Of a DNA stretch of 64,000 nt, positions 22,288 to 44,349 are shown one piece after another. This stretch comes from Hyphomonas jannaschiana VP2 (GTDB taxonomy: Bacteria > Pseudomonadota > Alphaproteobacteria > Caulobacterales > Hyphomonadaceae). The notes below the pieces were generated by a model that searched no databases, was not told the origin of the DNA, and saw only the letters and a list, made by a program, of their open reading frames with translations. The position numbers and the translations under genes are program-made. The stretch covers positions 186,001 to 250,000 of the forward strand of contig NZ_ARYJ01000003.1 of the NCBI RefSeq assembly GCF_000685215.1, read 5' to 3'. Within the stretch, counting starts at the first letter, position 1. The number at the start of each line of letters is the position of its first letter.

Positions 22288-22377
22288 GGAGAGGTGCTAG
22301 AGTGGTTGAATAGGCTAGTCTCGAAAACTAGTGAACTCGCAAGGGTTCCGAGGGTTCGAATCCCTCTCTCTCCGCCA
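22288..22377 (+). tRNA. tRNA-Ser(CGA), integration target
   Basis: A 90-base class II tRNA with an encoded CCA. The acceptor stem GGAGAGG pairs with TCTCTCC, the anticodon stem CTAGT/ACTAG closes the loop CTCGAAA (anticodon CGA), a long variable arm follows, and the T-loop is GTTCGAATC. It is the only tRNA in the window with a mobile element directly at its 3' end. The last ten bases, including CCA, recur at 44340-44349. The antisense strand of its 3' half encodes the C-terminus and stop codon of the element's recombinase. Confidence 0.97.
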
Positions 22378-23902
22378 TCCCTTCTTTTAGCCCTGAAATA
22401 TCCTGTAGAAGACTGAAAACGCTGGAAAAATCCGGGGTTCGAAAACCCTCATTCTTCTTGTATTTGAGAGGCGAGGAAAACACCAGTTTCAGGACGGTTT
22501 GTTTGTCCTCATAGCGCTCACTTTTCCATAGATTACAAGGGTTTGCGAGGAATGACATGGTGAGTTCGAACATTTCGCCGAATGGGCGCTTAGGCTTGCC
22601 CGTTTGAGAAAGCTTGTCGGTTAGCGCCAGCTTCTCCTTTTCCAGCTTCGTGATGCGGGTTTCATAAGCCGATACGACGCTGTCGCTTGAAGCCTTCACG
22701 ATGCGGTCAAGAAGCTGGGCAATCTGAGTCTCACATTGTGTGATCGAGCGCCGGATTGTCTGAGCCATTGCCTGGCCACTTTGGCGCTGTTGCTCCCAAG
22801 CGTTCTTGAACATGGCTTGTGTCATCGCGAAGAGCGTCTCCGATGGCTGCAGGTTTTGGAGCAGCGACTCAAACTCGCCTTCAATCTCGGCCTTACGGAT
22901 CGACTTGCCTTTGGAGGGGCAGCCCTTCGTGTAGCAGTGATAGTAAGGATGTCGCTTCCCGGTCTTGGATTTGGAGTGACTGGCGGTCAGCGGATTTTCG
23001 CAATCCGAGCACACAACACTGCCCCGAAGTGGGAAATAAGTATGGAGGTCGGCGCGGGCGGGCGCGTACTTCTTGCCGTTGAGGCGATCTTGAGCCTTCA
23101 GAAAGACATCATAGCTCACCAGTCCAGCATGCTTGCCTTTGCGAAGAGGCACACCCCATGTCGGACGTTCGACCATGCCGCCATAAAGAACCCTATTCAG
23201 AATGTGCGTGACGCGCTGAGGATGGACTTTGCCATTTGAGCCACGTGGAAATTCCGGGAAGGTTTCGAAGAAGCGGACGATCTCGGCCTTTGACTGGAAG
23301 CGCCCGCTGGCCAGTCCTTCGAAGGCGGCCTGAATGATGCTGGCGACAGGTTCGTCGCGCACGAGCACATTGCCATGACCGGGTGTGTGTTTTTGCTTGA
23401 AACCCCAAGGGGCCGCGAATGGATAATACCCGCCCAAAAAGCGCGCGCGTTGACGGTGCTTTGTCTGCTCAGCATTCTTCATACGGAAGTGTTGAGAAAC
23501 CGAAGCCATCATGTTTTCAAGAAGCTGGCTGTCGCTATCCTCACCGAATTCAAAGTTCGGGCTTTCGAGTACACCACCCGCCTTTGCAATTGCGCCGCGT
23601 AAGGCCCAGTGCGCATCCGTCCCGCGTGCGAGGCGACTGATATCGTCGATAATGACGCGGAGGTGGTGTTTGCGATTTTTGCGCAAATAGGCGAGCAATT
23701 GCTTCATGCCCGGGCGCTCAATCAATGCGCCTGAGACGGCCTTGTCCTCGAAGACCTTCTCTACGCGATAGCCCTTCATGCGGGCATACTCCTCGCACCG
23801 GACAGCTTGGCTTTCTGCGCCCTGGCCCTTGGCGACCTGAGCCGCCGAACTGACTCTCACATAGGAAACGGCGCGTTGAAGGGGTGTGAATTGTCCTGTC
23901 AT
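22328..23902 (-). CDS. Large serine recombinase (integrase of the element)
   Basis: Site-specific recombinase of 524 residues in the integrated state. The catalytic domain begins with SYVRVSS (nucleophile Ser18) and continues with IIDDISRLARG. The recombinase domain spans about 155-290. A zinc ribbon uses C298, C301, C323 and C328, and a coiled coil follows. The ATG at 23902 has AGGAGT 8 bases upstream and overlaps the preceding gene's stop (ATGA). The last 13 residues and the TAG stop lie inside the tRNA-Ser gene, so this C-terminus is borrowed from the host. In the excised circle the same frame would run on for 41 other residues (552 total); see 44216-44349. Confidence 0.93.
   Translation of the reverse strand: MTGQFTPLQRAVSYVRVSSAAQVAKGQGAESQAVRCEEYARMKGYRVEKVFEDKAVSGALIERPGMKQLLAYLRKNRKHHLRVIIDDISRLARGTDAHWALRGAIAKAGGVLESPNFEFGEDSDSQLLENMMASVSQHFRMKNAEQTKHRQRARFLGGYYPFAAPWGFKQKHTPGHGNVLVRDEPVASIIQAAFEGLASGRFQSKAEIVRFFETFPEFPRGSNGKVHPQRVTHILNRVLYGGMVERPTWGVPLRKGKHAGLVSYDVFLKAQDRLNGKKYAPARADLHTYFPLRGSVVCSDCENPLTASHSKSKTGKRHPYYHCYTKGCPSKGKSIRKAEIEGEFESLLQNLQPSETLFAMTQAMFKNAWEQQRQSGQAMAQTIRRSITQCETQIAQLLDRIVKASSDSVVSAYETRITKLEKEKLALTDKLSQTGKPKRPFGEMFELTMSFLANPCNLWKSERYEDKQTVLKLVFSSPLKYKKNEGFRTPDFSSVFSLLQDISGLKEGMAEREGFEPSEPLRVH
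22368..22377. repeat. attL core (direct repeat with 44340-44349)
   Basis: CTCTCCGCCA forms the 3' end of tRNA-Ser and is repeated exactly, in the same orientation, at 44340-44349. Taking 18 bases ending at each copy, 14 match. The exact crossover dinucleotide inside the repeat cannot be read from sequence. Confidence 0.75.
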
Positions 23903-24249
23903 GCTGAGACTCCTTCCTCGTCATCCGCGCAGGCAGACGTGACGACATTCTCGGTGATTGCATGAGAATATTCTACCCGATTATGAGCCGGAAGTGGGCT
24001 CTGATCGTGGTTTTTCGGAAGTTGTCCACAGGCCGAGCTGGCAGACGGTCTGGCGTCCAGAACCTGCTGCACAGGTGTCAGGCCGTAGCCCAGCTGGACG
24101 AATGAGACGACAATCGACCAGAGCATTTCAATGAGCTGGTGTTTGTCTTCTTCGGATATGTCTGCGCTTTCAAGGAACGGCGCATAGGCTTCAAAATTGA
24201 GTTCAAGTGTTGGGGTGTATGGTGTTGGCGGGTCTTGGCGATGGTGCAC
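23899..24249 (-). CDS. Hypothetical protein translationally coupled to the recombinase
   Basis: Protein of 116 residues with a GTG start at 24249 preceded by AAAGGACAC. Its stop overlaps the recombinase start as ATGA, so the two are made together. The middle (about 20-70) is predicted helical with a hydrophobic stretch (LIEMLWSIVVSFVQLGYGL) that is too polar at its ends to be a clear membrane anchor; the rest is polar. I do not recognise the family. Its position suggests an accessory role in recombination, for example as a directionality factor, but this is a guess from coupling alone. Confidence 0.75.
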   Translation of the reverse strand: MHHRQDPPTPYTPTLELNFEAYAPFLESADISEEDKHQLIEMLWSIVVSFVQLGYGLTPVQQVLDARPSASSACGQLPKNHDQSPLPAHNRVEYSHAITENVVTSACADDEEGVSA

Positions 24250-24267
24250 GTGTCCTTTGTCCTATCG

Positions 24268-24356
24268 TTAGCGGTTATCTTTCATGCGGGCTCCTTTCCT
24301 CCTTGAACCACAGCAAATAGGACCATATTCCTATATCAAAATTGCTTATTTTTCAA
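24268..24356 (-). promoter_or_regulatory. Leader of the recombinase operon: operator-like palindrome and 5-codon mini-ORF
   Basis: This AT-rich spacer contains the inverted repeat ATAGGA-CCATAT-TCCTAT at 24317-24334. On the minus strand TTGAAA (24356-24351) could be a -35 element, with a weak -10 overlapping the palindrome. Downstream, the strong site AAGGAGG precedes a tiny frame, ATG at 24285 to TAA at 24268, encoding MKDNR. The start of the coupled gene at 24249 follows 18 bases later. The layout resembles a regulated leader. Function is inferred. Confidence 0.45.
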
Positions 24357-24381
24357 GGAAAAACTGAATGCTGGCGAGCAA

Positions 24382-24681: not shown

Positions 24682-24717
24682 ATTTTGCCTCCTTGGCTGA
24701 GCGGTTGGGTTGGTGAG

Positions 24718-26352
24718 TTAAATCTGTGGCCGGTATCCTTCGACGTAGGACCAGATGCCGGCAGCGTATTGCGGATAGTGGGCAAGTTTTGAGGGAACGG
24801 GCTCGGTGATCACACGCCGCCATTCAGGGCCGTTTGGCGTGGCGATCTGAACGAGGTCCGAGGGCGGATGATATGGATTGGGCAGGTAACGCCCCGCCAT
24901 CATTGGCTGGGCATAGTAAGGGACGCGATCCGCATAGATTGGCCGGGGAACGCCATCCATCTGAACGTACATCTTGCCGGGCGGTGTGTGCAGGATCTCG
25001 TCGGGCGCTCTTAGATGCCGCTGCTGTTTGGAGCGCATGCGGGAGACGCGGCGCTGATGCCTGTATTCCAAAGCGGACCCAAGAAAATCGCCACCGCGAA
25101 GAATTGCCTGCAAAGCGCGCTTTCCGGCCTGCCTGGCCTGCGCCTGACGCTGGGAATCGTCATATTCGAGTGTCTGTACGCCCAGTTGCTGGCTGAGGTT
25201 CTGCGCCGAGGTGATATCGCGTACAGCGAAATGGACCTGAAGCGCGGCAGATGAAGGGATAATGTGCTCGGCATCCTGACCCACGGCGCGCATTTGCTTT
25301 GCGCTCTGGAAGATCGCGACGGGGCGAATGCCAATCCCTGCGCCCACGGTGAAGGCTTCCGTGAGCAAAGGGAATTTTCCGAGCAGCGCGCATTCATCAA
25401 GTAGCCATGTCTGGCGCGGGGCGGACGGGGCGCGGGACTTGTACGTGCGCAATGTGAGCAAGATGGCCTTGATGACCATCGACCACTGGCTCAGGAATTC
25501 AATGGGTGGGCAAAGATAGATATTATAGGCTTGCTGCCCTTTGGTGACATCCGACAGCTTTGCCGTGAATGGCGGCGAGACCGAGCGCAGCAAAACCGGA
25601 TCACTCAGGCAAGCAAAGGCTTTGGATAGCTCGCCTAGAATGCCCTGAAACCCGTTGGTAGGGTTTTCACGGGCGGAGAAAATTTCGGCCTCTATGGTCT
25701 TTGCATCTTCGTTGCCGGAGCTCCGCATATGCCGGGCGAATGCGTACCATTCCTCATTCTCGCTGATGAGCCAGCCAACGATGCGTTTGACCAATGGCAA
25801 GTTGAGCGGCCCGTAGACATCCACAGCTATGCGGCAAACCGCAAACAGATACTCCCGAGCGCGCAGTTCGAAATAAGAGCTATTGGCTGCCCCCGATTGC
25901 ACGATGGTATTATCAACGAAGCGCTGGATGTCTGACTCGATCAGCGGGTTGTCCGGCGTCAGATGTTCAAGCGGATTGAGTGTGTGTGAGGGCATGCCGT
26001 TCAGGCGCGCCGGGTTCCAGTGAAGCGTGTGTTTGCAATCTTCAATCTGGTTTTGGCTGATCGGCGCGATCTCGCACTTGGGGTCAAGGATCACCTGCGT
26101 GTGGCGGCAGATGCCAGGGCATACATTGTAAGCCAGCCAGTCCCGAAGTTTTCCGCCTCTGGCCCCGGCTACGAGAATGCAGCCGCCCGCGCCATCATAC
26201 CAGAGCGGGCGGCCCTTGAAGAACCCGGTGAACAAAGCACCGGGTGTTTGCGTGAAGCCGTCCGCGCGCTCGATCATTGCAGTATTTGCAAAGCCTGCCG
26301 AGCCGAAGCGGTCCCTCGCGTTGTTGAAATCCTCGTAACCGTAGGCGTCCAC
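24718..26352 (-). CDS. Type IV coupling protein (TraG/VirD4-like), soluble form
   Basis: ATPase of 544 residues that would bring the relaxase-DNA complex to a conjugation channel. Walker B is clear (TWLLDECALLGKFP, residues about 315-328), and the adjacent QSAKQM and LQVHFAVRD motifs are those of VirD4/TraG proteins. The Walker A site at 61-69 reads VAGARGGKL and departs from the GxxxxGK[S/T] consensus. There is no N-terminal membrane segment, although typical VirD4 proteins have two. Two small membrane proteins are encoded directly upstream and could supply the anchor, which is an inference. Confidence 0.85.
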   Translation of the reverse strand: MDAYGYEDFNNARDRFGSAGFANTAMIERADGFTQTPGALFTGFFKGRPLWYDGAGGCILVAGARGGKLRDWLAYNVCPGICRHTQVILDPKCEIAPISQNQIEDCKHTLHWNPARLNGMPSHTLNPLEHLTPDNPLIESDIQRFVDNTIVQSGAANSSYFELRAREYLFAVCRIAVDVYGPLNLPLVKRIVGWLISENEEWYAFARHMRSSGNEDAKTIEAEIFSARENPTNGFQGILGELSKAFACLSDPVLLRSVSPPFTAKLSDVTKGQQAYNIYLCPPIEFLSQWSMVIKAILLTLRTYKSRAPSAPRQTWLLDECALLGKFPLLTEAFTVGAGIGIRPVAIFQSAKQMRAVGQDAEHIIPSSAALQVHFAVRDITSAQNLSQQLGVQTLEYDDSQRQAQARQAGKRALQAILRGGDFLGSALEYRHQRRVSRMRSKQQRHLRAPDEILHTPPGKMYVQMDGVPRPIYADRVPYYAQPMMAGRYLPNPYHPPSDLVQIATPNGPEWRRVITEPVPSKLAHYPQYAAGIWSYVEGYRPQI

Positions 26353-26363
26353 TCTTTAAGGCC

Positions 26364-27235: not shown

Positions 27236-27248
27236 GAGTTCAGAACGA

Positions 27249-28735: not shown

Positions 28736-28788
28736 TTTCCTTCCGTAAAGAGACGGAATGGAGTAGGGTGAACTCACCGCCGGAAGCG

Positions 28789-28811
28789 ATTGAAATCCTA
28801 TGGATTTCAAT
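28789..28811. repeat. Perfect 10-bp inverted repeat upstream of the resolvase gene
   Basis: ATTGAAATCC and GGATTTCAAT face each other across a 3-base centre (TAT). It lies 54 bases upstream of the exported-protein start on one strand and 100 bases upstream of the resolvase start on the other. It could be an operator or part of a recombination site bound by the resolvase. Confidence 0.55.
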
Positions 28812-28911
28812 TTGCGAAGGGCTTCATAGGCACCAGTCTCGAAAGGGAAGCCTTGAGAGACGGCAATATGCAGCCGCCAGCGCTATTTTTGACAACTCGC
28901 AGGAGATCGCC

Positions 28912-29484
28912 ATGCGCATTGGCTATGCCCGTGTGTCCACGGGCGATCAGTCTCTTTCGCTCCAACTGGACGCGCTTGAAGCGTTCGGATGTGAGCGCAT
29001 CTATAAGGATCACGGTGTCAGCGCCCTGGCCAGCCGCAGGCCGGGATTGGAGCGCGCTCTCAGAAGGCTCTCGCCCGGTGATGTATTGGTCATCTGGCGG
29101 CTGGATCGCTTGGGTCGAAGCTTGCTTGATCTCCTCGATATAACCACAGCCTTGCAGAACCGGGACATCGGCCTCCACTCACTGTGCGAGAGCATCGATA
29201 CAGCCTCGGCATCCGGGCGATTGATCTTGCAGGTTATGGCCGCCGTAGCTGAGTTTGAGCGGTCTATTCTGATCGAGCGCACTCGCGCCGGGATGGAGGC
29301 GGCCAGAGCGCGCGGAGCGAAGTTCGGACGAAAACCTGCACTGGATGGCGAAGAATTGCGTGAGGCATTGTTTCTGCTGAGGCGCGGTATGAAGGTGCCG
29401 GAACTCGCAGATCATATGGGCGTCGGGAAATCCACCATGTATCGCTATATTGCCGGATCACCGGGAAGTGATCGGGCGGCTTAG
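28912..29484 (+). CDS. Small serine resolvase/invertase family recombinase
   Basis: Protein of 190 residues typical of Tn3-type resolvases and DNA invertases. The catalytic motif YARVSTGDQ has Ser9, followed by VIWRLDRLGRS and EFERSILIERTRAGMEAARARG. The C-terminal helix-turn-helix is PELADHMGVGKSTMYRYI. The ATG at 28912 has AGGAGATCGCC upstream. It may resolve multimers or have been the enzyme of a nested element; it stands at the left edge of the AT-rich cargo zone. Confidence 0.93.
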   Translation: MRIGYARVSTGDQSLSLQLDALEAFGCERIYKDHGVSALASRRPGLERALRRLSPGDVLVIWRLDRLGRSLLDLLDITTALQNRDIGLHSLCESIDTASASGRLILQVMAAVAEFERSILIERTRAGMEAARARGAKFGRKPALDGEELREALFLLRRGMKVPELADHMGVGKSTMYRYIAGSPGSDRAA

Positions 29485-31765: not shown

Positions 31766-34700
31766 ATGGAATCGCCGCCCAAGTCGTTAGGTCTTGATGC
31801 CCTGTTTGCTTCTACACTGCTAGGAAGCAGTTTGACGCTTTCAAGCATATCCAATGCGCATCCAGATATCGTTTCTGGAATGGCCTCATGTCACCCAACT
31901 AAGACAGCGTCCATCTTTTCGGCATTATTGACTGAACCCCGTCTCCAGGCATCCTGCTTGTTTCTTGAGGTGCTCGTTGCTCTCTCTCTTGTTCATTGCC
32001 GGGGCACAAGAAAACCAACGCCAAAAGAAATCCGACGGTGGTTCAATGCTCTTAATGATGGTCCCTGCGGAACAATGCTTGACCCTTCAGAAGACATATT
32101 CACGAACACATTGTGCTTGGACGATGGCGAGTACACAATTTTCGAAGGCATTTGGGAAGGTGCGGGATTTTATACTCAGCTAGCGGTTCAAGCTATTTCT
32201 TTCCCCCGCTCATCAGACGAAATTTCGTCACTGCGCAAATCAATAACTGCGCTACTGAAGCTTTCTTCTGAAATTGTCCGCCGGAGGATGCTGTCTCGCT
32301 ATGAGTACGGGGCGAGCGAACCCATCAGGCAAATCAGCCTCAAAGATGCGGAATGGGGGAGACGAAACAGAAGATCCGTTTCTTTCACCCTGCAGGAACT
32401 GAAGACACTTGAGGTCGAGCTTGAGGACTTAGCCGCTTTTGGCTTTCTTCCCGATTATAAAAGCAAGCTGGTTGATAGCGTAGTTGGGAACTCTCCGCTT
32501 GATCGATACCCACTGGGATATCACAATGAAGAGGTTGTCGTTTTAGCGCCAACGGCGATCTCATCTGCTATACGATATTTTGTCATAGAATTCTTTCAGG
32601 CGAATAATGCACTAGAGCACGGGTCTGGCCTTCTCGCATATGCATATCGTGACCTGTTAGATCGTATAGGAATATTTGGAGCATCAAATCGTCCCGATTT
32701 GGAATTTGAAAAAACTGACAAAGGATTTTTCTCAAGTGTTGTTAAGGAAGTTGATCTTGGGCGGTGGCTGAACATCGTATTTGTGGTGGATGCTTTCGAT
32801 GGCTTTGAGGAAGGTGGGCTAGTTGAGCCAGCTAATGACCCTCATCGATTTGACAAAGAAATCAATGCCTCTATCGACCATGCGTATAAAATCGCTGCTA
32901 AGTCGCCGAATTTCCGGGAGATGATTACCTTAACTGTGGGGTGTGGTCTTGGTCGTGCTATCAGTCACGCCATCACGGCGAAAAATAGAGAGAAATGGCG
33001 ACAGTGCTCCCTTTCCGCCTATGACTTGGTAGTTATCAGCCAAATCGACCAGCCCGACCCATTGCTCATCTGGCAGCTGCTTGATGCTCAAGATGCTGTG
33101 CATCGCAATGGTGTCCGCCTTCAGAATATCAATGGCTTGATTAACCTTCTGGCGTGGTCGCAATCCCTAGACGGACATCTTGTTCCACATGAGTCTATGC
33201 CTGATGACTTCTTCGGCGATAACACCTTTCTCGTCATCGATCAGAATTCGCAGAAGCAACTAAGGTACGATGTTGCGGTCAAAACCGACCGTAGGTTGCT
33301 AACTAGTCCCTATGGCGAGCAGCTGGAGATGCGAAAGATCTCGGACGAGCAATTTCCGACGGAACGACACCTCCCGCTATATGGATACGAGGGCTTTCTT
33401 GATGGACGTGGAATACCCCTCGCCTATGTGATGAGTGCAGGACAGGTCTGGTGGGGCGAGGTCAACACCCCGACGGCTGAAAGACGTGACCATGCATACG
33501 CTCGCTGGCAACTTTTGAAGACGTGGCTGCCTCGACTTGCTGACATTCTTACTCGGCATCTACCTGAGGCTCGCTTGTCTTTTTTGCTGCATCTTACATT
33601 CAACGGGAATGTCGGCGATAGCGGTGGTTACGATGCGCCAGGAACGTATGATGCATCTCTGGATGCAATTTCCATCAGCACAGATGCGGATAAGAACGCT
33701 GTCTTTTTGGAAATCGGAGAAGGTTTCGAGCATGGTGTTTTTAACGCTGAGAACGTTGCCGAGCGCGCTCTTATGGTCCGTGCAATCCAAGGATTTTTTA
33801 GACTCTGTAACGAGCCGCTCCCAGAAGATTTGTTAGAGGAGATTGTATCGGGAGTTGTTCCAAACAGTGATGCACGTCAAACACACCGATATGCATCAAT
33901 GGAAATACGTGACCTGTTACGCAGTAGACTCCCAAGAAAGCTGATTAAAACAAGTAGAATTGATGAGGGAGCGTTGAAACTTGGTTTGGGCTGGCGCTTT
34001 CGAGATCGCTCAGAGGGCGCGTTGATTGAAGGTGTGGAGCCTTGCACTCAGTTTTTGAATAAGGTCACAAGAGAACTTACGAATGATTTGAGAGCAGAAA
34101 TCGGCAAGTATTCAAAAGACGCGCTCCTAAGGCTTTGCCTCACCAACCATGAGATTGCGGCAGTAGATCGGCAGCAATGGCGTAGAACCTCTAGAGCTAT
34201 CCTCGCCCTGAGGGATCAATCCCCAGACGCACGCAATGTAATTATCAACAATGAGTTCGAACTCAATGGGATATTTGCTTCGTGCAGAAATGTTGCAGAG
34301 ATGGCGGTGTGTGACGCGCTGGATGAAGGAGGTTTGCTCCCTGGCAAGCTTGATTTTGCTCGAATGCTCTCAAGAGCCATGCTCATTTTTCACCTTGGAA
34401 ACAATTCAAACTGCATGCGTTGGGGAGCGATGGAGCCAACAATTAAGATAACACCTCAAGGTGACATCCACGCTAACCACGACTTTTCAGACCAAGTAAT
34501 TCAGCCCTACGCTCACGCAGGAACGAGCAGCTCTATTGATGAGGATATCAAACGCTATCCGGAGCGGATATTTGACGGACAGCGACCCAAAAAGCAACAA
34601 GCGCGCAGCATTGATTTGGAGTTTGAAGCGGCCTTTTTAGCGGAGATGGGGGGATCAATAGAGGAGTATAAAATCCTCATTGAAAGCATAGAAGACCGTG

Positions 34701-35548
34701 CTTTTGTCCAGCAAAGCCCGATCATAACAGAACGATTGTCGGAATTATCTCAAGTATCAACAGATATAGGAAAGCTCGCCCCTGAAGTGGCGCGCAGGAT
34801 TATTCAGAGGATGATGCTAGTGCCGCGGCAAACTTGGGACACCATACCCAACGGTTGCTTGGACAAAGATATCCGCTTTTGGCGTTTTAGGCGTCAACTC
34901 TCGATTGTGCGCCGTCCATTCTTGGCGCTCAGTGAGCAGAGCGATCCAGTTGTCATGGTTGCGCCTGGCATGTTGCGGGATTCATTCGCATACCTTGTCA
35001 GCAACTACTACTCCGCCAGTTTTCCGTTGGAGCAAATTGAGAGTGTAGAAATGCGGCGCTACAAATCGCATACAGATGATATTCGGGGCAGTGAGTTTGA
35101 GATTAAGGTTCAAGAGAAATTCGATCTCTTGGGGTGGTCGACCTATCGCGGAAAAACCCTGTCGGAGATACTCGGAGCCAACCTTGACAGGGATTATGGG
35201 GATATTGATGTTCTGGCAATCTCTCCGGGGAGAGATAGAATTTTAGTAATCGAATGCAAAGACCTTCTTGAGCGCAAAACACCTGGCGAGATTGCAGAAC
35301 AGATCAGCAAATTCCAAGGAGTTTCGGCGAATGGAAAGCGGGATTTGCTGCGCAAACATTTAGACCGCTTAGAAAAGCTTCAAGCTGAATCGGGCGCTGT
35401 AAAGACGTTTTGTAATGCGGAACGGGATGCGGAAATAGAGGGCTGGCTCGTCTTCAGTAATATTGTCCCTATGCAGTGGGCATGGGGAGAACTTCAGAGT
35501 AAATCAAAAATCGTTGTATTTGACGATATTGCTAGGATTTTCCAGTAG
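31766..35548 (+). CDS. Large uncharacterised protein with C-terminal PD-(D/E)xK nuclease-like domain
   Basis: Protein of 1260 residues that I do not recognise as a whole. The last ~160 residues look like a restriction-endonuclease fold: a conserved Glu in GSEFEIKVQEKF (about 1110), Asp in DYGDIDVLAIS (about 1147) and the ExK-type triad in LVIECKDL (about 1163), followed by a helix. The long N-terminal part is soluble and mixed alpha/beta with no visible Walker or helicase motifs. Codon use is AT-rich and unlike the host. Lying in a defence cargo zone beside Septu, it is a candidate single-gene nuclease defence protein; that is an inference. The ATG at 31766 follows ATAGGTAG. Confidence 0.7.
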   Translation: MESPPKSLGLDALFASTLLGSSLTLSSISNAHPDIVSGMASCHPTKTASIFSALLTEPRLQASCLFLEVLVALSLVHCRGTRKPTPKEIRRWFNALNDGPCGTMLDPSEDIFTNTLCLDDGEYTIFEGIWEGAGFYTQLAVQAISFPRSSDEISSLRKSITALLKLSSEIVRRRMLSRYEYGASEPIRQISLKDAEWGRRNRRSVSFTLQELKTLEVELEDLAAFGFLPDYKSKLVDSVVGNSPLDRYPLGYHNEEVVVLAPTAISSAIRYFVIEFFQANNALEHGSGLLAYAYRDLLDRIGIFGASNRPDLEFEKTDKGFFSSVVKEVDLGRWLNIVFVVDAFDGFEEGGLVEPANDPHRFDKEINASIDHAYKIAAKSPNFREMITLTVGCGLGRAISHAITAKNREKWRQCSLSAYDLVVISQIDQPDPLLIWQLLDAQDAVHRNGVRLQNINGLINLLAWSQSLDGHLVPHESMPDDFFGDNTFLVIDQNSQKQLRYDVAVKTDRRLLTSPYGEQLEMRKISDEQFPTERHLPLYGYEGFLDGRGIPLAYVMSAGQVWWGEVNTPTAERRDHAYARWQLLKTWLPRLADILTRHLPEARLSFLLHLTFNGNVGDSGGYDAPGTYDASLDAISISTDADKNAVFLEIGEGFEHGVFNAENVAERALMVRAIQGFFRLCNEPLPEDLLEEIVSGVVPNSDARQTHRYASMEIRDLLRSRLPRKLIKTSRIDEGALKLGLGWRFRDRSEGALIEGVEPCTQFLNKVTRELTNDLRAEIGKYSKDALLRLCLTNHEIAAVDRQQWRRTSRAILALRDQSPDARNVIINNEFELNGIFASCRNVAEMAVCDALDEGGLLPGKLDFARMLSRAMLIFHLGNNSNCMRWGAMEPTIKITPQGDIHANHDFSDQVIQPYAHAGTSSSIDEDIKRYPERIFDGQRPKKQQARSIDLEFEAAFLAEMGGSIEEYKILIESIEDRAFVQQSPIITERLSELSQVSTDIGKLAPEVARRIIQRMMLVPRQTWDTIPNGCLDKDIRFWRFRRQLSIVRRPFLALSEQSDPVVMVAPGMLRDSFAYLVSNYYSASFPLEQIESVEMRRYKSHTDDIRGSEFEIKVQEKFDLLGWSTYRGKTLSEILGANLDRDYGDIDVLAISPGRDRILVIECKDLLERKTPGEIAEQISKFQGVSANGKRDLLRKHLDRLEKLQAESGAVKTFCNAERDAEIEGWLVFSNIVPMQWAWGELQSKSKIVVFDDIARIFQ

Positions 35549-35617
35549 AGTTAAGTGCCTTAAAGGTGCGGTCTTAGCTGGTATCGCCGATGATCAAAGC
35601 TCTGACATGCAGGCTTA

Positions 35618-36469
35618 TTAGGCTCGAAACCCACCATTGCAATACCATCCGCTTTGAGCGGCTGCCTCATACAGTGCACCTTCCCATGAATTGATACTGA
35701 ATTCACTACAGCTCAGACTTCGCGTTTCGAGATCTTGCTGTACCGCTTGTGCTCCTACCGCATCATACATGCTGGACAATGATCGGCGGATATTCTGCAG
35801 TTGCCGCCCCGCTTGTGAAGCATACAACCTAGAAAGCTTCAGTTTGTCGAAGTGGTTTTGAACTCGTCTTACGGTTACTTGGTCCCAATTGTTTGGGGGA
35901 TGAACAAAATACGTGGCTCCAGGTGGGCTGCCATTGACAATTTCTGCATACAGCCAGCGATCTGCCGTGATGTCGTCGTAGTACGCATTGAGAAATTGCG
36001 AAACTGCATCAGCGGGTGCTGAAGTTCCTTTGTTGTGATTGCAGTCTTTGCAGCAGGGGATGAGGTTAATTGGGGTGACCGCGAGTATCGGATGCCGCTT
36101 CTTTGGTAGCGTATGGTCTAGAGTAGAGACCGTATGGTGCCCGCAGAATGGGCATTGGCCATGCACAGCGCTTGCCATGATCTTATCGTACACAGAGTGA
36201 CCTCGGCTTTTTTGCCGCGCCATATGCCGCGTATAGAGCTGTTCCATCTCACTTGCAGTTACGTCTCCCGCAGCGCCGGCAATGGTATTTGTTCCGGCGG
36301 TTAGATAAATCTCTTGAGCTACCCCCCTCGCATCGAACTCGATTTCTGCTGCTGCGATTTGGGGGCGAATACCTTCCAACCGTGTTTTTTGACCCGCATC
36401 ACTGATACCCTCAATACAGGTATCGAAGGTGCTGCTAGCTGTGATTGTTGGTTTTTGAATTGTCCACAT
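35618..36469 (-). CDS. ptuB: HNH endonuclease, Septu PtuB-like
   Basis: Protein of 283 residues with an HNH nuclease core: CPFC (106-109), DHTLPKKRHP with Asp118/His119, INLIPCC at about 134-140, and CNHNKGT with Cys143 and Asn144. The four cysteines form the zinc site. It starts 2 bases after the stop of the ATPase gene, the order known for Septu (ptuA then ptuB), in which PtuA forms a ring that holds PtuB until phage infection. The flanking regions (1-100 and 165-283) are helical. Identification rests on the gene pair and motifs. Confidence 0.82.
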   Translation of the reverse strand: MWTIQKPTITASSTFDTCIEGISDAGQKTRLEGIRPQIAAAEIEFDARGVAQEIYLTAGTNTIAGAAGDVTASEMEQLYTRHMARQKSRGHSVYDKIMASAVHGQCPFCGHHTVSTLDHTLPKKRHPILAVTPINLIPCCKDCNHNKGTSAPADAVSQFLNAYYDDITADRWLYAEIVNGSPPGATYFVHPPNNWDQVTVRRVQNHFDKLKLSRLYASQAGRQLQNIRRSLSSMYDAVGAQAVQQDLETRSLSCSEFSINSWEGALYEAAAQSGWYCNGGFRA

Positions 36470-36471
36470 TG

Positions 36472-38049
36472 CTAGCGGCCCGCTCCATTTCGGGCGGCAA
36501 TTAATGACCTAGCAATCCCCCTTGCTTCGTCCCCTAGCTGCCCTCCAAAGCGCTCTAGGATTTGTTCGTATGTCAGGTTTTCGTCCACAGAATCGCTAAT
36601 CATTTTGTAGAAGCCGGAATTCGTGACTTCGAGTCCAAATATCGCGTGCGTCAGCGTGCCTACGTTTTCGCCAAATGTTTCTGCCGCGGGGCGCTCAATT
36701 TGCTTCTCAGTCCCGTTGCGCCAAAGTCGCCAAACACATGTCTTTGGGACCTCTTGTAAAATCACAGGGGAGTGCGTTGCGATGATGGCCACCCCATTTC
36801 TATTTATTAGTAAGTCTGACAAAGATCGGATGAATGCTGAAAGGAGCGGTGGGTGTAAGTGTGCTTCTGGTTCATCCAGCAGGACGAGTGAACGTTCCTC
36901 TATGGTTTCGACAAGCCGCGTTATCGTCAGCACAACAATCTTGTGACCTGAACTTAGCTTTGAATAGAGTTGTCGAGCACTTTTACGCACGAGCTCAAAC
37001 GCTTGACGACGTTCAAACTGAGTTCGTAGTTCGCCGAATTCCTCAATTAACTGCCAGATTTCTGCCTGTTTAAATATTGGGTCCGATTCCAAAAGTTCCA
37101 AAGCACGTCGCCATCTTTCCTGCTTGGAGATTTGGGTTAGGATAAGCTGTACTGACTGCCCAAAATCGGCGGCCAGGTCATCTGGTGACTTCGGCGGCTT
37201 CGCTTTGCCATCTTCGTTTTTACTGGTGTGTTTCAATCCTATATATTGATACCTAACGGCAGACAGCTTGTTTTCTCTGACAGGCAGCGGTTCGAATGGG
37301 TCAAACGCACTGAACGTCACAGAAATGATGTTGGAGAAGTTTTTTGAATCCTCGAAATCGTGATCATTTTCGTTCCAACTGAAGTCGCCAAAATTGCCAT
37401 CTTCAGGACGAACCAGTGCTTTGGTCATCTGATCGACAGTGTATGTCTTTCCGACGTTATTTCGGCCGATTAGTACGTGCACGTTTGTCGGTGGGTATGC
37501 GCCTGGTATGACTTCAAATTCAAATGTTGGGGGAACATTCCCTCTGCCCCAAGGGGGAGGTGTATATGAAAAAGAATAGTCGGTAAGCCGTGCGCCTCCC
37601 TGAGCCATCCGTCGATATTGTCCCCTTACAGATTGATCAGAAACGGACCGAAGCAGAGAGACACCAGTAACATTTTCTTCAAGAGCACGTTCGAATAGAT
37701 TTAGGTCTCTGGCCACATCTTTCATGGCCACAAGATAGGTATCTCTGAAATCATCACCCAGCTCATTGAGCGCTTGATAATAGCTGTCGTCCTGACCGAG
37801 CGAGAAATACTGTTCGTCTAGCTGCTCAAATTGAGCTGGGATGTTGGCGCGTCTTTGATCTGGCTCCATATCGAATTGGCCTATCTTGACCTCGCCTATC
37901 CGGTGCTTTTCACCCTCAGCATCAAAATAGAACACCACGTACATGGTGTTGTATTTGAACCAATCGTCCCATGCGTCTGTAAGAAGAACCACTAAGTCCT
38001 TCGCATCGCGTGGAAGCGGTCCCTGATTTGGAATCACTTGAAACTTCAT
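36472..38049 (-). CDS. ptuA: AAA/ABC-type ATPase, Septu PtuA-like
   Basis: ATPase of 525 residues of the RecF/SMC-like group. Walker A is GRNNVGKT (195-202), the ABC signature LSSGHK is at 365-370, Walker B is LVLLDEPEAHLH (388-399) and the H-loop is IIATHSP (422-428). About 165 residues precede the ATPase core. Together with the HNH gene 2 bases downstream this is the Septu type of phage-defence system. No reverse transcriptase is nearby, so it is not a retron-linked variant. OLD-family or Gabija-like nucleases are an alternative, but no TOPRIM or helicase gene is present. Confidence 0.82.
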   Translation of the reverse strand: MKFQVIPNQGPLPRDAKDLVVLLTDAWDDWFKYNTMYVVFYFDAEGEKHRIGEVKIGQFDMEPDQRRANIPAQFEQLDEQYFSLGQDDSYYQALNELGDDFRDTYLVAMKDVARDLNLFERALEENVTGVSLLRSVSDQSVRGQYRRMAQGGARLTDYSFSYTPPPWGRGNVPPTFEFEVIPGAYPPTNVHVLIGRNNVGKTYTVDQMTKALVRPEDGNFGDFSWNENDHDFEDSKNFSNIISVTFSAFDPFEPLPVRENKLSAVRYQYIGLKHTSKNEDGKAKPPKSPDDLAADFGQSVQLILTQISKQERWRRALELLESDPIFKQAEIWQLIEEFGELRTQFERRQAFELVRKSARQLYSKLSSGHKIVVLTITRLVETIEERSLVLLDEPEAHLHPPLLSAFIRSLSDLLINRNGVAIIATHSPVILQEVPKTCVWRLWRNGTEKQIERPAAETFGENVGTLTHAIFGLEVTNSGFYKMISDSVDENLTYEQILERFGGQLGDEARGIARSLIAARNGAGR

Positions 38050-38242
38050 AGCGCAAAAAGTGTATCAACTTATCATTGTATTCCCAAGCAAGAAGACGCT
38101 AAGCGGAATGCTGACATCAAGGGTCGCTTGAGGCGCTCGCTATCAAATGTTCCGCAGCCTCAAAACTAAAGGCAAATTGATCGTCGAAATTAGTGCGAAA
38201 CAACTCGACCTCTTAACCTTGCAGGTAAAATAGAGCCCGGCT

Positions 38243-39259
38243 CTAAGCGATAATGGCCGCATCGACATCAACACGGTTGACCCGGTATTCGTCGACGCTT
38301 TCGATAGTGCCGGAACTGGGCTCGAATAGCGCTATGTTCACACCATCGCTGACCGAACTTGAGTAAAGAACGCCAGCGTAACCGCACCGTTTAATGTACT
38401 CGCAAAGATACTGGCTTGGTATGTAATCTATAGCAGCAGCGTTCGGTAGGACGGGAGTTGTTAGCTCAGCCCCTAACCTTTCCAGAAATTCTATATCTCC
38501 TCGCATGAGTCCAATTTCACCTTCTCCCTCTAGGAGAAATGGTGAAATTAAAGCTCTGGGATTTCTAAGATCGATAATAGGCAGGTCATCCTCGACCCGA
38601 TATTTTGCTACACATACGTGCTCCCCAGGATGCGGTCTTACTTCAGCAATCGCTGTAAACGGCGTTGACCCCAAATAGAGGTAAGGAATGCCGGCAGGAT
38701 TGGCTCTTCCATGCGCAGCGAGTTCTCTTGGAGGGGCCCCCATTTCGGACGCTTTGTAGGCTTTTCCGTTTGTCTCAATCCGTGCACGGTACCATTCTCT
38801 TGGCCATTCATCGCGTGTTATCAGAAGGCTAGAGAAAAGCTCTTCAAGTCTATCAAGTTCAAAGTCTGTTTGCGGAAAAAATCGATTTACATGCCTTAGT
38901 TCTTCGCGAAGTGCTTCCCAGCCATCCAGATTGCGCGTTTCACACAGCTCAGATGGCACCACCAACTCGCGAACGCGTTCGCCATCATCCAGAATCTCGA
39001 CGAGAAGACTATTCGCCAATGCACGATCAAGATTGAATAAATTCCAATCTTCGATCAACCAATCGACCAAGACCCGACCGCTCTCGTCACGCTTATAGAT
39101 GCCGCATAGGACCTCGAAATAGTCGCCTAACTTCTTAGCTTCGACCAAAGGCTTATTCTGAGCATTGCATAGAGGGCAGGTTCCTGTTTGCTCCGATATT
39201 TGCGGGATAATTTCTCTTTCAAGCCCTCTGTCTCTGAAGCAATTTGGGCAGCAGAGCAT
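38243..39259 (-). CDS. RES-domain protein with zinc ribbon and HEPN-like N-terminal region
   Basis: Protein of 338 residues. An N-terminal zinc ribbon uses C4, C7, C28 and C31. A helical middle (about 40-160) resembles the HEPN-type region often found before RES domains. The RES domain follows, with WYRARI, GRANPAGIPYLYLGST, AIAEVRPHPGE and YSSSVSDGVNIALF carrying the Arg, Glu and Ser that name the family. RES toxins break down NAD+ in Xre-RES toxin-antitoxin pairs. Here the start overlaps the stop of the sce7725-like gene (TAATG), and no Xre gene is adjacent, so the partner must be different. Confidence 0.82.
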   Translation of the reverse strand: MLCCPNCFRDRGLEREIIPQISEQTGTCPLCNAQNKPLVEAKKLGDYFEVLCGIYKRDESGRVLVDWLIEDWNLFNLDRALANSLLVEILDDGERVRELVVPSELCETRNLDGWEALREELRHVNRFFPQTDFELDRLEELFSSLLITRDEWPREWYRARIETNGKAYKASEMGAPPRELAAHGRANPAGIPYLYLGSTPFTAIAEVRPHPGEHVCVAKYRVEDDLPIIDLRNPRALISPFLLEGEGEIGLMRGDIEFLERLGAELTTPVLPNAAAIDYIPSQYLCEYIKRCGYAGVLYSSSVSDGVNIALFEPSSGTIESVDEYRVNRVDVDAAIIA

Positions 39260-40209
39260 TAGTCGTCTTCCTCGAAGTACTCAGCCAACGTCTCGATGTG
39301 GTGCTTCATGGATAGTTTCTTCACATATCCAAGACCAGGATAATGACCCCGCCTGTGTAAATCTCTAAATTCTTCAATCGCACTGGTTTCAATGTACTTT
39401 GAATTTGGACCATTGAGCAGAGAAATGAGCTTTTCGAGCGCTTCCGCAAATTTACCCGCTGGGTCTTTTGGCGTATCCTGCCTATCCGACTTAAAATGCC
39501 TGATGTGCATTTCTTCGTCTTTATCGTAGTCAATGTAAGTCAGATGGATCGCAACGGTATACGCTGGTCCTCCACTTTCTCGATAGTCATCTCCGACAAT
39601 GAGATAATCCCCGAAGCCAGTCATATTCTCTAGTTCGTAGGTGGCATGAAGGTCCGAGAAGAACTCTGGCGCGTCAGGATGATCCCGATTTCGCCTTTGT
39701 TGAAATCCATCTCTAACAAGAATCTTATTTTCATGATCCGCGAAATGCCGTTGGTAGAGTTTTCCGCAAAAATCTTCCAGAAAAACGCTTGTTTTAACCT
39801 GATCAAAATCTGCTGTTTCGTCTGCTAATGCTCGTCCATCTGCAAACCCGGCATGGATGAATGCGAGGTCCTTTTCTTCAAAGTCCTCACAAAGACTGAT
39901 CACGTCCGCAACGGTCATCTCCTCTGTTAGAAGCAGTCCGTATATGAGATTCTCGCGGTCATCGAACTCTTCTTGTAGCAATTCGACGATACTCGCGCCG
40001 TCATGGCTGTGATCGCCAATTTGCGGGTTGACGATGACAATCGCTTGTCCTCCGGCGTCACAAATTTCTTGGAGAGCTTTTTTTAGGCCACTCATCTGTT
40101 CACGGACAGGCTCAATGATTGGGGTGAACCCGGCCTCCGCTAGCAATTCCGCAGTTTCTCGAATTGTGATCAGCTCATACTGCTTTCCGCGAAAATACGG
40201 ATGGTACAT
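39259..40209 (-). CDS. sce7725 family protein
   Basis: Protein of 316 residues starting MYHPYFRGKQYELI, the typical start of the sce7725/beta-protein family; the alternative TTG start at 40221 is not needed because GGGGGTAAAG precedes the ATG at 40209. The fold is expected to be an alpha/beta barrel-like protein, with IIEPVREQM, IVIVNPQIGDHSHDG and GFGDYLIVGDDYRESGGPAYTVA in short blocks. Function is not established. It lies between the sce7726-like gene (2 bases upstream) and the RES gene (1-base overlap), so the three are made as one unit. Confidence 0.8.
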   Translation of the reverse strand: MYHPYFRGKQYELITIRETAELLAEAGFTPIIEPVREQMSGLKKALQEICDAGGQAIVIVNPQIGDHSHDGASIVELLQEEFDDRENLIYGLLLTEEMTVADVISLCEDFEEKDLAFIHAGFADGRALADETADFDQVKTSVFLEDFCGKLYQRHFADHENKILVRDGFQQRRNRDHPDAPEFFSDLHATYELENMTGFGDYLIVGDDYRESGGPAYTVAIHLTYIDYDKDEEMHIRHFKSDRQDTPKDPAGKFAEALEKLISLLNGPNSKYIETSAIEEFRDLHRRGHYPGLGYVKKLSMKHHIETLAEYFEEDD

Positions 40210-40211
40210 CT

Positions 40212-41102
40212 TTACCCCCAACCCAATGCATCAACTGCTGGTGCCTGCAATGCTGCAACTAGGCGACCATGATCTTTCTGCCGCAGCCTGGATGTAAGCG
40301 AAATAGAATAAAGACTCGGCGGAATATCATCCAGAAGGGACTGAAGAGGCTGCAAATTGCGCGTGCGCTTCAGTGTACGCACCATCTCTCGGTGCGCGTA
40401 TTCCGAAGGTAATTGCACGAACAGCTCACGTAAGGCTGTGTAGCGCATTGTGTTGGGAACGTCGGGGGCGTCGATTCCAGCGCTGCTTAGTATCTGCTGC
40501 GCTTCCGTCAGATTAATCGAGTCGAATATTGCACCAGAACTTGTCCTTTGCGGCAAGTCTCGCGCTTCCCGCAAAGTGGAAATGCGGTGCCTGGGGCAAA
40601 GCAACATTATGCCAACATCTTCGGGAGTCTTTGACAAAGCCTCTTCGGCATGGTTCTCGCCAACAATAACATTTACTGACGCAAACACTGTTCGATATGC
40701 ATCAACTTGATCACTCAATCGGCTTAACGTGTCTCGCTCCGATTTGATTTCGTAAACAGTGCCGGTTCCGTTAAGAATCACGACATCCGCCTTGCAAGAA
40801 CCAACTCGAAACTCCGTTACCATCGAAGCTGTATTCAATGAGTGCGTGCCCAGAAGCACCTTGTGAGTAATGGCTGACTTATAGACATATTCATGTCGAT
40901 TGCTTTTCAATCGCAGGTGCTGAAAAGCGCGCTCAAACAGATCACCTACACGTTCACAGGCAAGTGCATCGACTGGCAGACCAGATTCTCTGATAAGGCG
41001 AGCCAGAAGCGGTGATCTGCCACTCTTCGACAGCTCTTTAAAGACGCTGGCAGAAAAGAAACGTGCAACAGCAGAGGTCTCGATGTGCTCCTTAGTTTTC
41101 AT
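40212..41102 (-). CDS. sce7726 family protein with nuclease-like core
   Basis: Protein of 296 residues that matches the sce7726 family in layout. The centre shows a PD-(D/E)xK-like arrangement: E97 in VTEFRVGSCKADVVIL, D106 in the same block and E118-x-K120 in VYEIKSERDTL, followed by a helix with DQVDAYRTVF. The C-terminal part (about 200-296) is helical. It is the first gene of the sce7726-sce7725-RES unit. Whether it cleaves nucleic acid or only binds it is unknown. Confidence 0.8.
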   Translation of the reverse strand: MKTKEHIETSAVARFFSASVFKELSKSGRSPLLARLIRESGLPVDALACERVGDLFERAFQHLRLKSNRHEYVYKSAITHKVLLGTHSLNTASMVTEFRVGSCKADVVILNGTGTVYEIKSERDTLSRLSDQVDAYRTVFASVNVIVGENHAEEALSKTPEDVGIMLLCPRHRISTLREARDLPQRTSSGAIFDSINLTEAQQILSSAGIDAPDVPNTMRYTALRELFVQLPSEYAHREMVRTLKRTRNLQPLQSLLDDIPPSLYSISLTSRLRQKDHGRLVAALQAPAVDALGWG

Positions 41103-42058: not shown

Positions 42059-42060
42059 TC

Positions 42061-42483
42061 ATGGCCCGGAACTACAATCGCAATGGCTATTCGCCGGGGC
42101 ATCCTTGGTTTTACGTGCTGGGCGGTCCCGTTTTGCCGCCAAGCGTCATCTTGGCCGAAGTTGTGAGCTGCAATTATCGCGGATACATGGAGCGCGATAT
42201 TTCGCGGATCGATGCGCTGGCAGAGCCCAAGCGCTCTGAGGAGCTTCGCAAACTCCGTGGAAAGGTGCTGGTCGATTATAGGCGCGACCTTTCCGGATAC
42301 CGGAAAGCGGCGCGTGATCTAAACGCCTTTCGCAGAGAACATCCTGAAGCCGTGGACGAGCCCTTTCATGACTCCGTACACACTGCGCTGAGCCTCAAAC
42401 ACAATCATCTGTTCAACGACTTTGCTCACCTGATCGTTCTGGATGAATTACTCTCCGTTCAACCCGACCTGTTCGGAGTCTGA
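42061..42483 (+). CDS. Hypothetical protein downstream of ardA
   Basis: Protein of 140 residues starting 2 bases after the ardA stop, so it is co-translated. It begins MARNYNRNGYSPGHPWFYVLGG and has a helical, basic middle (about 55-95). No membrane segment. The family is not recognised. The tight link to ardA suggests a role early after entry into a new cell, which is inferred. Confidence 0.7.
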   Translation: MARNYNRNGYSPGHPWFYVLGGPVLPPSVILAEVVSCNYRGYMERDISRIDALAEPKRSEELRKLRGKVLVDYRRDLSGYRKAARDLNAFRREHPEAVDEPFHDSVHTALSLKHNHLFNDFAHLIVLDELLSVQPDLFGV

Positions 42484-42510
42484 GCGCGGGGAATTCCTCA
42501 GACTCTATTG

Positions 42511-43818
42511 TTACCGTTCCGGACCACGGGGCCGATCTCGCCCTGGCTCTTTGCCCCGCTCTTCTCGCCGCCGTTGTTTGAAGGCTTCGCGCCGATCTTC
42601 TCGTGACGGCTCAGTGGTTTCCCGATACCGGAGCGCATCCTGGCGGAGTTCCTGCTGCCGTTCAGCAATGTGTTCCTGCCGATGCCGTGCGCGTTGCTCT
42701 AGCAATCGCCTTTGCTCAAGCTGGCGGAACACCAGAGTGTCGCGTTCGGCGCGGTCGCGTTTGAAGCATTCATAGGCGCGGCGTTCGTTTTCTTCACGAA
42801 TGCGGGCATGCTCGCCGCGCAGTTTGTCCCATAGGCCGCGCAGTCCGGCAGAAAAGCGCGCTTGGCGCTCGCGGGCTTCTATTGCCTCACGCTGAGCGAT
42901 CCGTTCGAAGGCTGCCGCCCGTTCGGCGCGCTGGCGCTCGATGAGGATTTGTTTCTGGCGCTGATGTTCTGCTTTGGCCTGTGCAGCACGTGCATCGAGT
43001 TCCTGCTGGAACTGGCTGAGCTTGCCCTGCATTTCGCGCGCAGTATCCCGTTTCGCCTGTTCGAGGCTGGGAAGCTCTTGAGCATCGCCAACTCTATCGC
43101 GTATTTGTTTGGGCTTGATGCCGGCCCATCGGGACAGCGAGTAAACCTCGCCCCGATAATCCGTCACTACGAAGCCGCGCCGATCACCGCGCGCCAGCTT
43201 GAAGCCGCGCTCCTGCAAAGCATGTCCGAGCGATGCAGCGGAATCGGATATGGCCCACGCATCCTGAATGGCGGCCTTGATGTCCTTCGGATCGCGTTCC
43301 ACACGCTTGGCTTGCTGCCATTCTTCCAGCGTAAAACTTCTCGGGTCGCGCTCGCGCGAGTTCACCAATCCGCGCGGCATTTGCCAACCATGTTCGAGGT
43401 AGAGGTCGCGGGAGAGTTCCTGCATCTTGCGCTTGGAGAATGAGAGCTGCACCGCTTTTAGGTTTTCCGCATCAATGCGGGACCATACCGCATGTGCATG
43501 GCGACGACCTTCTTTTTCGTGGAAGACAATAGCGCGCGGTTGTCCTGTCAGGCCCAGCCGCTCCTCAGCTTGCTCAATGGCGGCTTCGAACATTTCCACC
43601 GTGACCTCTTTCTGTGGTGGCGGGTTGAAGCTCATGGAGAAGAGAAACTGCTTGCAGCGCGTCCCCCGGCTGAGGGCGTAGGCTTCCTGGAACGCTTCAT
43701 CAAGGTCATCGCTCGCGAAACCCCGCACCTCGTGGACATGCACATGGTCGTTCTCATCTTTGAGGAGATGGCGGGCGAGATCACGCGCCCCGCCGCGCTG
43801 GTTGCCAACGAGGATCAC
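42511..43818 (-). CDS. Relaxase/mobilization nuclease (MobA/VirD2-like)
   Basis: DNA-nicking transfer enzyme of 435 residues. The relaxase domain (about 1-200) starts MILVGNQRGGARDLA and carries the metal-binding histidine motif HEKEGRRHAHAVW (H100, H108, H110). The remaining C-terminal part is a long charged coiled-coil helix rich in Arg, Glu and Gln (about 260-420), probably binding DNA or partner proteins. Its start overlaps the mobC stop by 4 bases. In the integrated element these two genes lack an obvious promoter immediately upstream; see the finding at the right end. Confidence 0.9.
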   Translation of the reverse strand: MILVGNQRGGARDLARHLLKDENDHVHVHEVRGFASDDLDEAFQEAYALSRGTRCKQFLFSMSFNPPPQKEVTVEMFEAAIEQAEERLGLTGQPRAIVFHEKEGRRHAHAVWSRIDAENLKAVQLSFSKRKMQELSRDLYLEHGWQMPRGLVNSRERDPRSFTLEEWQQAKRVERDPKDIKAAIQDAWAISDSAASLGHALQERGFKLARGDRRGFVVTDYRGEVYSLSRWAGIKPKQIRDRVGDAQELPSLEQAKRDTAREMQGKLSQFQQELDARAAQAKAEHQRQKQILIERQRAERAAAFERIAQREAIEARERQARFSAGLRGLWDKLRGEHARIREENERRAYECFKRDRAERDTLVFRQLEQRRLLEQRARHRQEHIAERQQELRQDALRYRETTEPSREDRREAFKQRRREERGKEPGRDRPRGPER

Positions 43819-44219
43819 GGCTTGAGCCCCATCTGCCTGATGAGCATGAGGCGCATACGCTTGATGTCTGCGCAGGCGTCATGGAGTTCCTGTTGCAATT
43901 CCGGTGTGACGGGCAGTGCGCCTTGATGGGCCAGCTTGGCAATCTGGTTGAGATTGGAAGCCAGCCGCGATTGACCGAGCCCAGCCAGCGCCTGCGCCCA
44001 TGCCTTATCGCTTTCGCTCGGGCTGCGGGCCGAAGACTTGCGCGGCGTGGCATCATCGCCCAGCAGCTTGTGGCGAATGTAGGAGCCCAGAGGCTTAGAG
44101 CCCGCCTTACGCTTGAGAGACGCACGCTCAGCTTCCGTTAGCCGGATCGAAAACGGTCTGGCCTGTTCGCCAGGATTACGGGGCGCATTGAAGCTTTGTT
44201 TGAGGGAAGGGGCACTCAT
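43815..44219 (-). CDS. MobC-like relaxosome protein
   Basis: Accessory transfer protein of 134 residues. The N-terminal part has a ribbon-helix-helix-like core (RPFSIRLTEAERASLKRKAG), and the C-terminal region LASNLNQIAKLAHQGALP is the MobC-family signature. Such proteins bind oriT and help the relaxase nick. It overlaps the relaxase gene by 4 bases. Its start codon overlaps, as ATGA, the stop codon of an open frame coming from the element's right end, which is the displaced 3' part of the recombinase gene. Confidence 0.88.
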   Translation of the reverse strand: MSAPSLKQSFNAPRNPGEQARPFSIRLTEAERASLKRKAGSKPLGSYIRHKLLGDDATPRKSSARSPSESDKAWAQALAGLGQSRLASNLNQIAKLAHQGALPVTPELQQELHDACADIKRMRLMLIRQMGLKP

Positions 44220-44349
44220 AGCTCCGGCCCTCCCAATTCATCCCCAATGGATTCGGGGCGGTTTTGCTCCAGATGTTGAAGCTGATGTTCCCAATCGGCT
44301 AGGGTTTCGAACAATTCGGAGTGTGAAGGAAGTCCTCCACTCTCCGCCA
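44216..44349 (-). other. Displaced 3' end of the recombinase gene (attR side)
   Basis: Read on the minus strand from the ten-base repeat, the recombinase frame continues as MAE then 41 further codons to a TGA at 44218-44216. The predicted tail is soluble and helical (LFETLADWEHQLQHLEQ, then PESIGDELGGPEL). Its stop overlaps the mobC start as ATGA. In the chromosome this fragment has no start of its own and is cut off from the recombinase by integration; in the circular form it would be the recombinase C-terminus. Frame, length and overlap were worked out base by base. Confidence 0.8.
44340..44349. repeat. attR core (direct repeat with 22368-22377)
   Basis: Exact second copy of CTCTCCGCCA, 21,972 bases from the first and in the same orientation. 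It stands 121 bases outside the mobC start. Sequence to the right is what should have followed tRNA-Ser before integration. Confidence 0.75.

Follow-up and report, generated by a model that had tools for sequence, protein, structure and literature searches.

Integration exchanges the end of a large serine recombinase gene in a probable mobilizable element of Hyphomonas jannaschiana and its relatives

The 64,000-nt stretch of Hyphomonas jannaschiana VP2 analysed here (contig NZ_ARYJ01000003.1, positions 186,001 to 250,000; hereafter the window, in whose coordinates all positions are given) carries an element integrated at the 3′ end of a tRNA-Ser gene. Its own large serine recombinase (LSR) gene contains, within the 3′ end, the attachment site of the circular form (attP), and integration exchanges the C-terminal end of the encoded enzyme. 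An earlier note made from the sequence alone had proposed this arrangement; we confirmed the observation and found it to be general. We explain the element as an integrative mobilizable element (IME) built around this attachment site, and give the whole explanation, which covers the gene structure together with the changes in enzyme and promoter supply that we infer from sequence, a probability of about 0.7.

The integration target was the tRNA-Ser (CGA) gene (22288-22377, + strand; called by ARAGORN), the 3′ end of which now forms the left attachment site (attL). A 10-bp core, CTCTCCGCCA, is present exactly twice in the window (+ strand), at attL (22368-22377) and at the right attachment site, attR (44340-44349). 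The recombinase gene (22328-23902, - strand; Pfam Resolvase and Zn_ribbon_recom) crosses the core into the tRNA gene, as the earlier note had read it, and stops there after 13 tRNA-derived residues, giving an integrated form of 524 aa whose last residues are antisense tRNA-Ser. When the two repeats are joined as in the predicted circle, the frame encodes 552 aa and continues for 41 codons through a segment at the far end of the element (44216-44349, - strand; ...SHSELFETLADWEHQL...GGPEL). This segment, the tail, includes the core, is conserved among relatives, and is attached to the recombinase only in the circle. The TGA of the joined frame (44218-44216) overlaps the ATG of mobC (at 44219) as ATGA. 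This gene encodes a MobC/NikA-like accessory protein (43815-44219, - strand; Pfam matches below cut-off), and it overlaps by 4 bases the gene for a MobA/VirD2-type relaxase (42511-43818, - strand; Pfam PF03432, with an NCBIfam TraI_MobP match below cut-off). The circle thus sets recombinase, mobC and relaxase in one run with overlapping ends, an order that recurs across Alphaproteobacteria. Upstream of the recombinase lies a gene for a VirD4/TraG-like coupling protein (24718-26352, - strand; Pfam T4SS-DNA_transf), the sole type IV secretion component recognised among the genes scanned, which were part of the open reading frames. With this gene and the overlaps, the transfer genes make up one run that the attachment site cuts.

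The IME assignment follows from an element with its own recombinase, its own relaxase and defined ends. The recombinase has the N-terminal resolvase domain and zinc ribbon domain of LSRs (Pfam), as do its uncut relatives described below, and a model of one of these, L280, aligns with the LI, Bxb1, SPbeta and phiC31 integrases; these structural matches bear on the overall LSR fold and barely test the tail. To our knowledge, none of these four integrases has its attP inside the integrase coding sequence. We found no close full-length relative in plasmid and phage collections, where, among the matches listed, query coverage of at least 80% came only at about 21-26% identity; partial matches in the plasmid collection reached 43.5% identity.

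The earlier note had held that the joined frame, its long open tail and the ATGA overlap were unlikely to coincide by chance. For the window by itself this was only suggestive, since a 41-codon open run has a chance probability of about 0.16 at local GC content, and relatives were needed to decide. Using the shared 508 recombinase residues as query against 150 genomes (E ≤ 0.001), we obtained matches in 79, the window's own genome and weak matches counted. Of the first 30 loci (L004-L033, the window's own included), 27 have an ARAGORN-called tRNA on the antisense strand at the recombinase end; for L017, L019 and L025 none was called there. From relatives with sufficient contig space, 25 longer stretches were assembled, including that of the window and one with two elements. 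In 18 elements of these stretches, taken from relatives picked by recombinase similarity, mobC and relaxase lay at the end away from the recombinase and on the same strand as it. The stretches outside the 18 were mostly interrupted by contig ends; in G061 the relaxase match was on the opposite strand and mobC had no match. A core of 9-12 bp was found just upstream of mobC in 11 elements and one of 3-7 bp in six more. In each case we picked by hand the match that sits where the tRNA ends at its 3′ side; equally long chance matches occur elsewhere too.

In 17 of the 18 elements, the circle-joined recombinase frame ends overlapping the mobC start, by 4 nt (ATGA) in 12 cases, by 7 nt in two, by 8 nt in two and by 17 nt in one. 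The other two frames of the 17 joins reached the mobC start in none of 34 trials. Recurrence of the same join in this one frame settles the question left by the single case, and the ends lie at the same place in 17 of the 18, as the earlier note required of related elements. The set includes the close duplicates G114a/b and G130b/G017. Integration places mobC and the relaxase gene 20.7-35.4 kb away from the recombinase in 16 of the 17 elements, and 4.4 kb away in one. A further 17 pairs picked by tail match stand outside this count; their cores were sought in the expected phase, and they provide no test of phase. Matches to mobC and relaxase follow the tail in 15 of these 17 loci, where the overlapping ATG is the presumed mobC start, and none follow in L178 (G570) and L185 (G488). 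Fifteen of the extra pairs could be resolved by motif; their stops fall within ATGA in 11 and within GTGA in two. The tail motif is also present in G110b and G058b, whose joins are outside these 15.

The tail itself is conserved. An alignment of 14 of the 17 joined C-termini showed a common motif, SNxLFExLxDWExQL. A profile of the joined C-termini, run against 299 genomes of the order and 385 of the class, matched in 77 and 30 of them respectively, with the window's own genome counted each time; among the matches listed, those to recombinases mostly end at the core, with separate tail matches elsewhere, often on the same contig. For a codon test we used 29 non-redundant tails, after dropping five near-identical ones from 34. 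Mismatch at codon positions 1, 2 and 3 was 0.445, 0.271 and 0.66. In the recombinase frame the proportion of nonsynonymous differences (pN) was 0.364 and that of synonymous differences (pS) 0.84, giving a pN/pS of 0.43 with pS saturated; this ratio was reached by none of 300 column shuffles, and the other frames gave a pN of 0.447 with a pS of 0.503, and a pN of 0.509 with a pS of 0.244. Because part of the 29 tails had been found via the profile, the test was repeated with 15 tails found by position alone, without a tail search, and gave similar values (mismatch 0.446/0.269/0.688; pN/pS 0.457; 0 of 300 shuffles). The G114a and G114b tails differ by three silent and no replaced codons. This codon-level constraint indicates that the tail is translated in the recombinase frame and is under purifying selection in that frame, even though it stands apart from the recombinase gene when the element is integrated. 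By eye, the right ends of L162 (G278) and L180 (G673) each show two successive attP-like tail pieces, possibly relics of earlier integrations.

Uncut genes carry the same tail. A 27-kb linear viral contig (L318) with a gpA-type terminase encodes an uninterrupted recombinase of 533 aa with the tail at its end, followed by a minor-tail-protein gene; the record has no match to a relaxase, and the part of it examined for mobC gave none either. Cerasicoccus frondis (L280) likewise has an intact recombinase with the tail. Judged from these phage and Cerasicoccus forms, which retain the tail without an overlapping mobC, the tail is not solely a device for coupling to mobC. G036 has a recombinase that a mid-gene frameshift divides into two pieces and that is followed by the tail, an ATGA overlap with mobC, and the relaxase gene; a second recombinase 30 kb away ends in tRNA-Thr, and the 18.5 kb before the first recombinase contain no mobC match. 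The locus is an apparent tandem array. A decayed contiguous recombinase-tail case occurs in G105, with no mobC match. Two other candidates were discarded: G134 has an ordinary tRNA-Arg end in place of a contiguous recombinase and tail, and G212 was set aside as a weak, distant profile match. Further viral scans revealed no second phage with an uncut gene, the profile match stopping at the core in 11 of 12 viral records.

The sequences show that the circle would encode a full-length recombinase with the conserved C-terminal segment, its gene overlapping mobC and followed by the relaxase gene, and that integration at the tRNA 3′ end replaces this segment with antisense-tRNA residues and moves mobC and the relaxase gene to the far end. 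We propose from this that the circle form may yield a complete, integration-competent enzyme, and the integrated gene a tail-less enzyme of altered activity, either locked in the integrated state or biased towards excision, for which the protein encoded directly upstream could perhaps act as a directionality factor. mobC and the relaxase gene would lose their promoter by integration and recover it by excision; the gene order fits circularization-dependent transfer of the kind known from Tn916. In effect, the recombinase gene would record the state of the DNA and its product would change accordingly.

Several observations weigh against this explanation, or limit it. In G129, the one exception among the 18 elements, no tail was present in the stretch read upstream of mobC. 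Among the extra pairs, no start overlaps the stop in G455, and G570 has its next ATG just after the stop. In L280, matches to mobC (32%, E 2e-6) and to the relaxase (26%) begin about 300 nt downstream of the tail, past a terminator-like sequence seen by eye, which means that the operon join is not universal. Several close tail pairs have more replaced than silent codons (G130a/G673, 12 against 5; G140/G097, 21 against 16). The AlphaFold model of L280 places the tail helix at a predicted local distance difference test (pLDDT) score of about 40-50, too low for use. An ATG at the core (AAAATGG) is kept in many right ends, so that separate translation of the tail is possible.

A stronger form of the proposal, which we offer tentatively and at less than even odds, is that the recombinase rewrites itself across a whole family of mobilizable elements and some phages: the tailed enzyme of the circle would favour integration at the tRNA T-loop, and the integrated product would favour excision or be locked, so that the gene itself would carry the choice of direction, which would not depend solely on a separate factor, with the transfer genes switched by the same cut.

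Loss of the tail could instead inactivate the enzyme, trapping the element until a complete copy or a tandem neighbour supplies the missing piece. Such self-locking would follow the logic of the SSV-type integrases (in the accessible part of PMC8371274) and agree with what was suggested for the dsiB recombinase (likewise in PMC3146451); the tail apparently restored by a tandem in G036 also speaks for it. We consider it rather unlikely. The resolvase and zinc ribbon domains remain in the integrated form, and in the predicted model of the relative the helices expected for the coiled coil precede the core, so full inactivation is not obviously expected.

Less probable still is that the arrangement reflects nothing beyond compact packing, with attP at the 3′ end of a gene, a dispensable tail, ordinary operon overlaps and no regulatory effect. 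ATGA overlaps are frequent in operons, and the integrated enzyme still has the recognised LSR domains. Dispensability sits poorly with a tail motif retained over wide recombinase divergence under codon-level constraint, and with a phage form that keeps the tail with no mobC match in the examined stretch. That the tail is a separate short leader reading frame coupling translation to mobC, as its stop overlapping the mobC start in 17 of 18 elements and the ATG at the core of many right ends would allow, is very improbable given its fusion to intact recombinases in L318 and L280 without an overlapping mobC, and given 17 joins that are open in the recombinase frame while the other frames never reach mobC.

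The nearest precedent is dsiB of Dehalococcoides, a serine recombinase gene that at its 3′ end invariably overlaps attL and continues into the RNA gene used as target or into an adjacent island; its authors suggested that the product perhaps reaches full function only when the gene sits on the circularized element or next to an island supplying the 3′ piece (McMurdie et al., 2011; PMC3146451, as far as accessible). The recombinase 3′ end overlaps attL in our element as well. The dsiB target is the ssrA (tmRNA) gene, whereas here it is tRNA-Ser, with other tRNAs in relatives. The accessible text on dsiB describes no conserved tail, states that alignments diverge there, and mentions no mobC overlap; the dsiB partner is a small serine recombinase, DsiA. 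What we add to dsiB, for many tRNAs, is the tail together with its conservation and the operon join. As in the suicidal integrases of archaeal SSV-type viruses, attP lies inside the integrase gene and integration splits that gene; in the SSV type, a tyrosine recombinase is separated into N- and C-terminal parts of which the C-terminal is catalytic (PMC8371274, accessible part), whereas here a serine recombinase keeps its catalytic domain with the main gene and exchanges nothing but a C-terminal tail.

Integration-dependent immunity of mycobacteriophage BPs also places attP in a coding gene, with an integrated product 33 residues shorter that behaves differently; that gene encodes a repressor whose longer form is degraded via an ssrA-like tag, and not a recombinase as here (PMC4557955, accessible part). 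For Tn916, the accessible part of PMC11658703, citing Celli and Trieu-Cuot (1998), describes transfer genes that are cut off from their promoter when integrated and that, once the element is excised, are transcribed through the joined ends; it mentions no protein-coding join across the attachment site. Specific IMEs with serine recombinases are known to integrate within genes (IME review, PMC5704250, accessible part). We found no account of a conserved tail or a mobC join in the portions of the literature searched, from which subscription papers were mostly excluded. Completeness of the recombinase on the circle had thus been suggested for dsiB, and the conserved tail with its mobC join, well supported by sequence comparison, appears to be new. 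What sets the direction of serine integrases is of central importance to phage biology and genome engineering, and a conserved enzyme segment swapped at each step opens the role of the C-terminus to direct testing. The layout would also be one by which a mobilizable element with anti-phage genes could hold its relaxase off while integrated.

To assess breadth, we examined 92 loci, comprising the best 80 of 352 relatives from named genomes and 12 viral contigs, some of which repeat each other or genomes already covered by the sets above. The earlier note had named recombinases that normally end before the repeat as evidence against its idea. In 73 of the 92 loci the recombinase ends in or at a called tRNA, antisense (40 Arg, 24 Ser, 3 Ala, 2 Leu, and one each of Thr, Glu, Val and Met; in one of these, L239, it stops just short of the tRNA), and 11 more have tRNA-like peptide ends without a called tRNA; two genes are uncut, and the six other ends are unexplained, leaving the idea standing for most loci. 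Odd recombinase C-termini such as GFEPS are thereby explained as antisense tRNA in 84 of 92 loci.

By pattern, 14 of 17 target sites (attB) have the tRNA T-loop motif TTCGAAC at 17-18 bases from the core; the other three have CTCGAAC by eye. In attP, a TTCGAAC-like motif within the tail lies 22 bases from the core in 25 of 29 cases, the window's own tail being among the four exceptions. This 5-bp offset of the recognition motif between attP and attB is as in an LSR; for LI integrase, the accessible part of PMC3783163 reports a motif whose distance from the core is 5 bp greater in attP than in attB. The shifted T-loop motif suggests a reason why one recombinase family can use many tRNA targets. 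The G017 and G130b recombinases are 99% identical over 500 residues and end in a tRNA-Arg and in a differently sequenced, uncalled tRNA remnant; that of G439, 85% identical to this type, ends in tRNA-Val. Separately, 10 of 17 elements have a TTCGAA-like motif within the recombinase gene, 65-66 bp from the core (about 22443 in the window, at the recombinase C-terminus); it translates as GFRTP in one frame and as GFSNP in another, which hints at conservation at the DNA level.

The earlier note had also counted an empty site with another junction in a sister strain as evidence against its idea. Among 42 genomes matched, we read ten tRNA-Ser sites from the same genus besides the window's own; five of these ten share one common native flank directly after CTCTCCGCCA. 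In the window's genome this flank is found about 34 kb to the right of the element, a 22-kb insertion that sits between tRNA-Ser and another island. That island is the reason why the exact empty site of this insertion was not seen. The second island at the same tRNA-Ser spans 44350-64000 and continues to G000:C3 264326, with an IS240-type transposase gene near the border. A same-genus genome (L213, G017:C3) has a recombinase fragment 90% identical to the window's at the same tRNA-Ser.

Directly upstream of the recombinase, and overlapping its start by 4 bases, is a small partner gene (23899-24249, - strand; 116 aa), the window copy of which has no Pfam or NCBIfam match. Of 93 loci, some of them on viral contigs, 87 have a relative of it ahead of the recombinase; we regard it as a candidate directionality or accessory factor. 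The cargo (31766-41102) looks like a defence island and comprises a gene for an Upx-like anti-phage protein (31766-35548, + strand; PADLOC; NCBIfam E 4e-246, with a score of 819 against a family cut-off of 1900), a two-gene PtuA/PDC-M01A and PDC-M01B pair (35618-38049, - strand; PADLOC), and RES-domain, sce7725 and sce7726 family genes (38243-41102, - strand). A small resolvase gene (Resolvase and HTH_7) also lies inside the element at 28768-29484.

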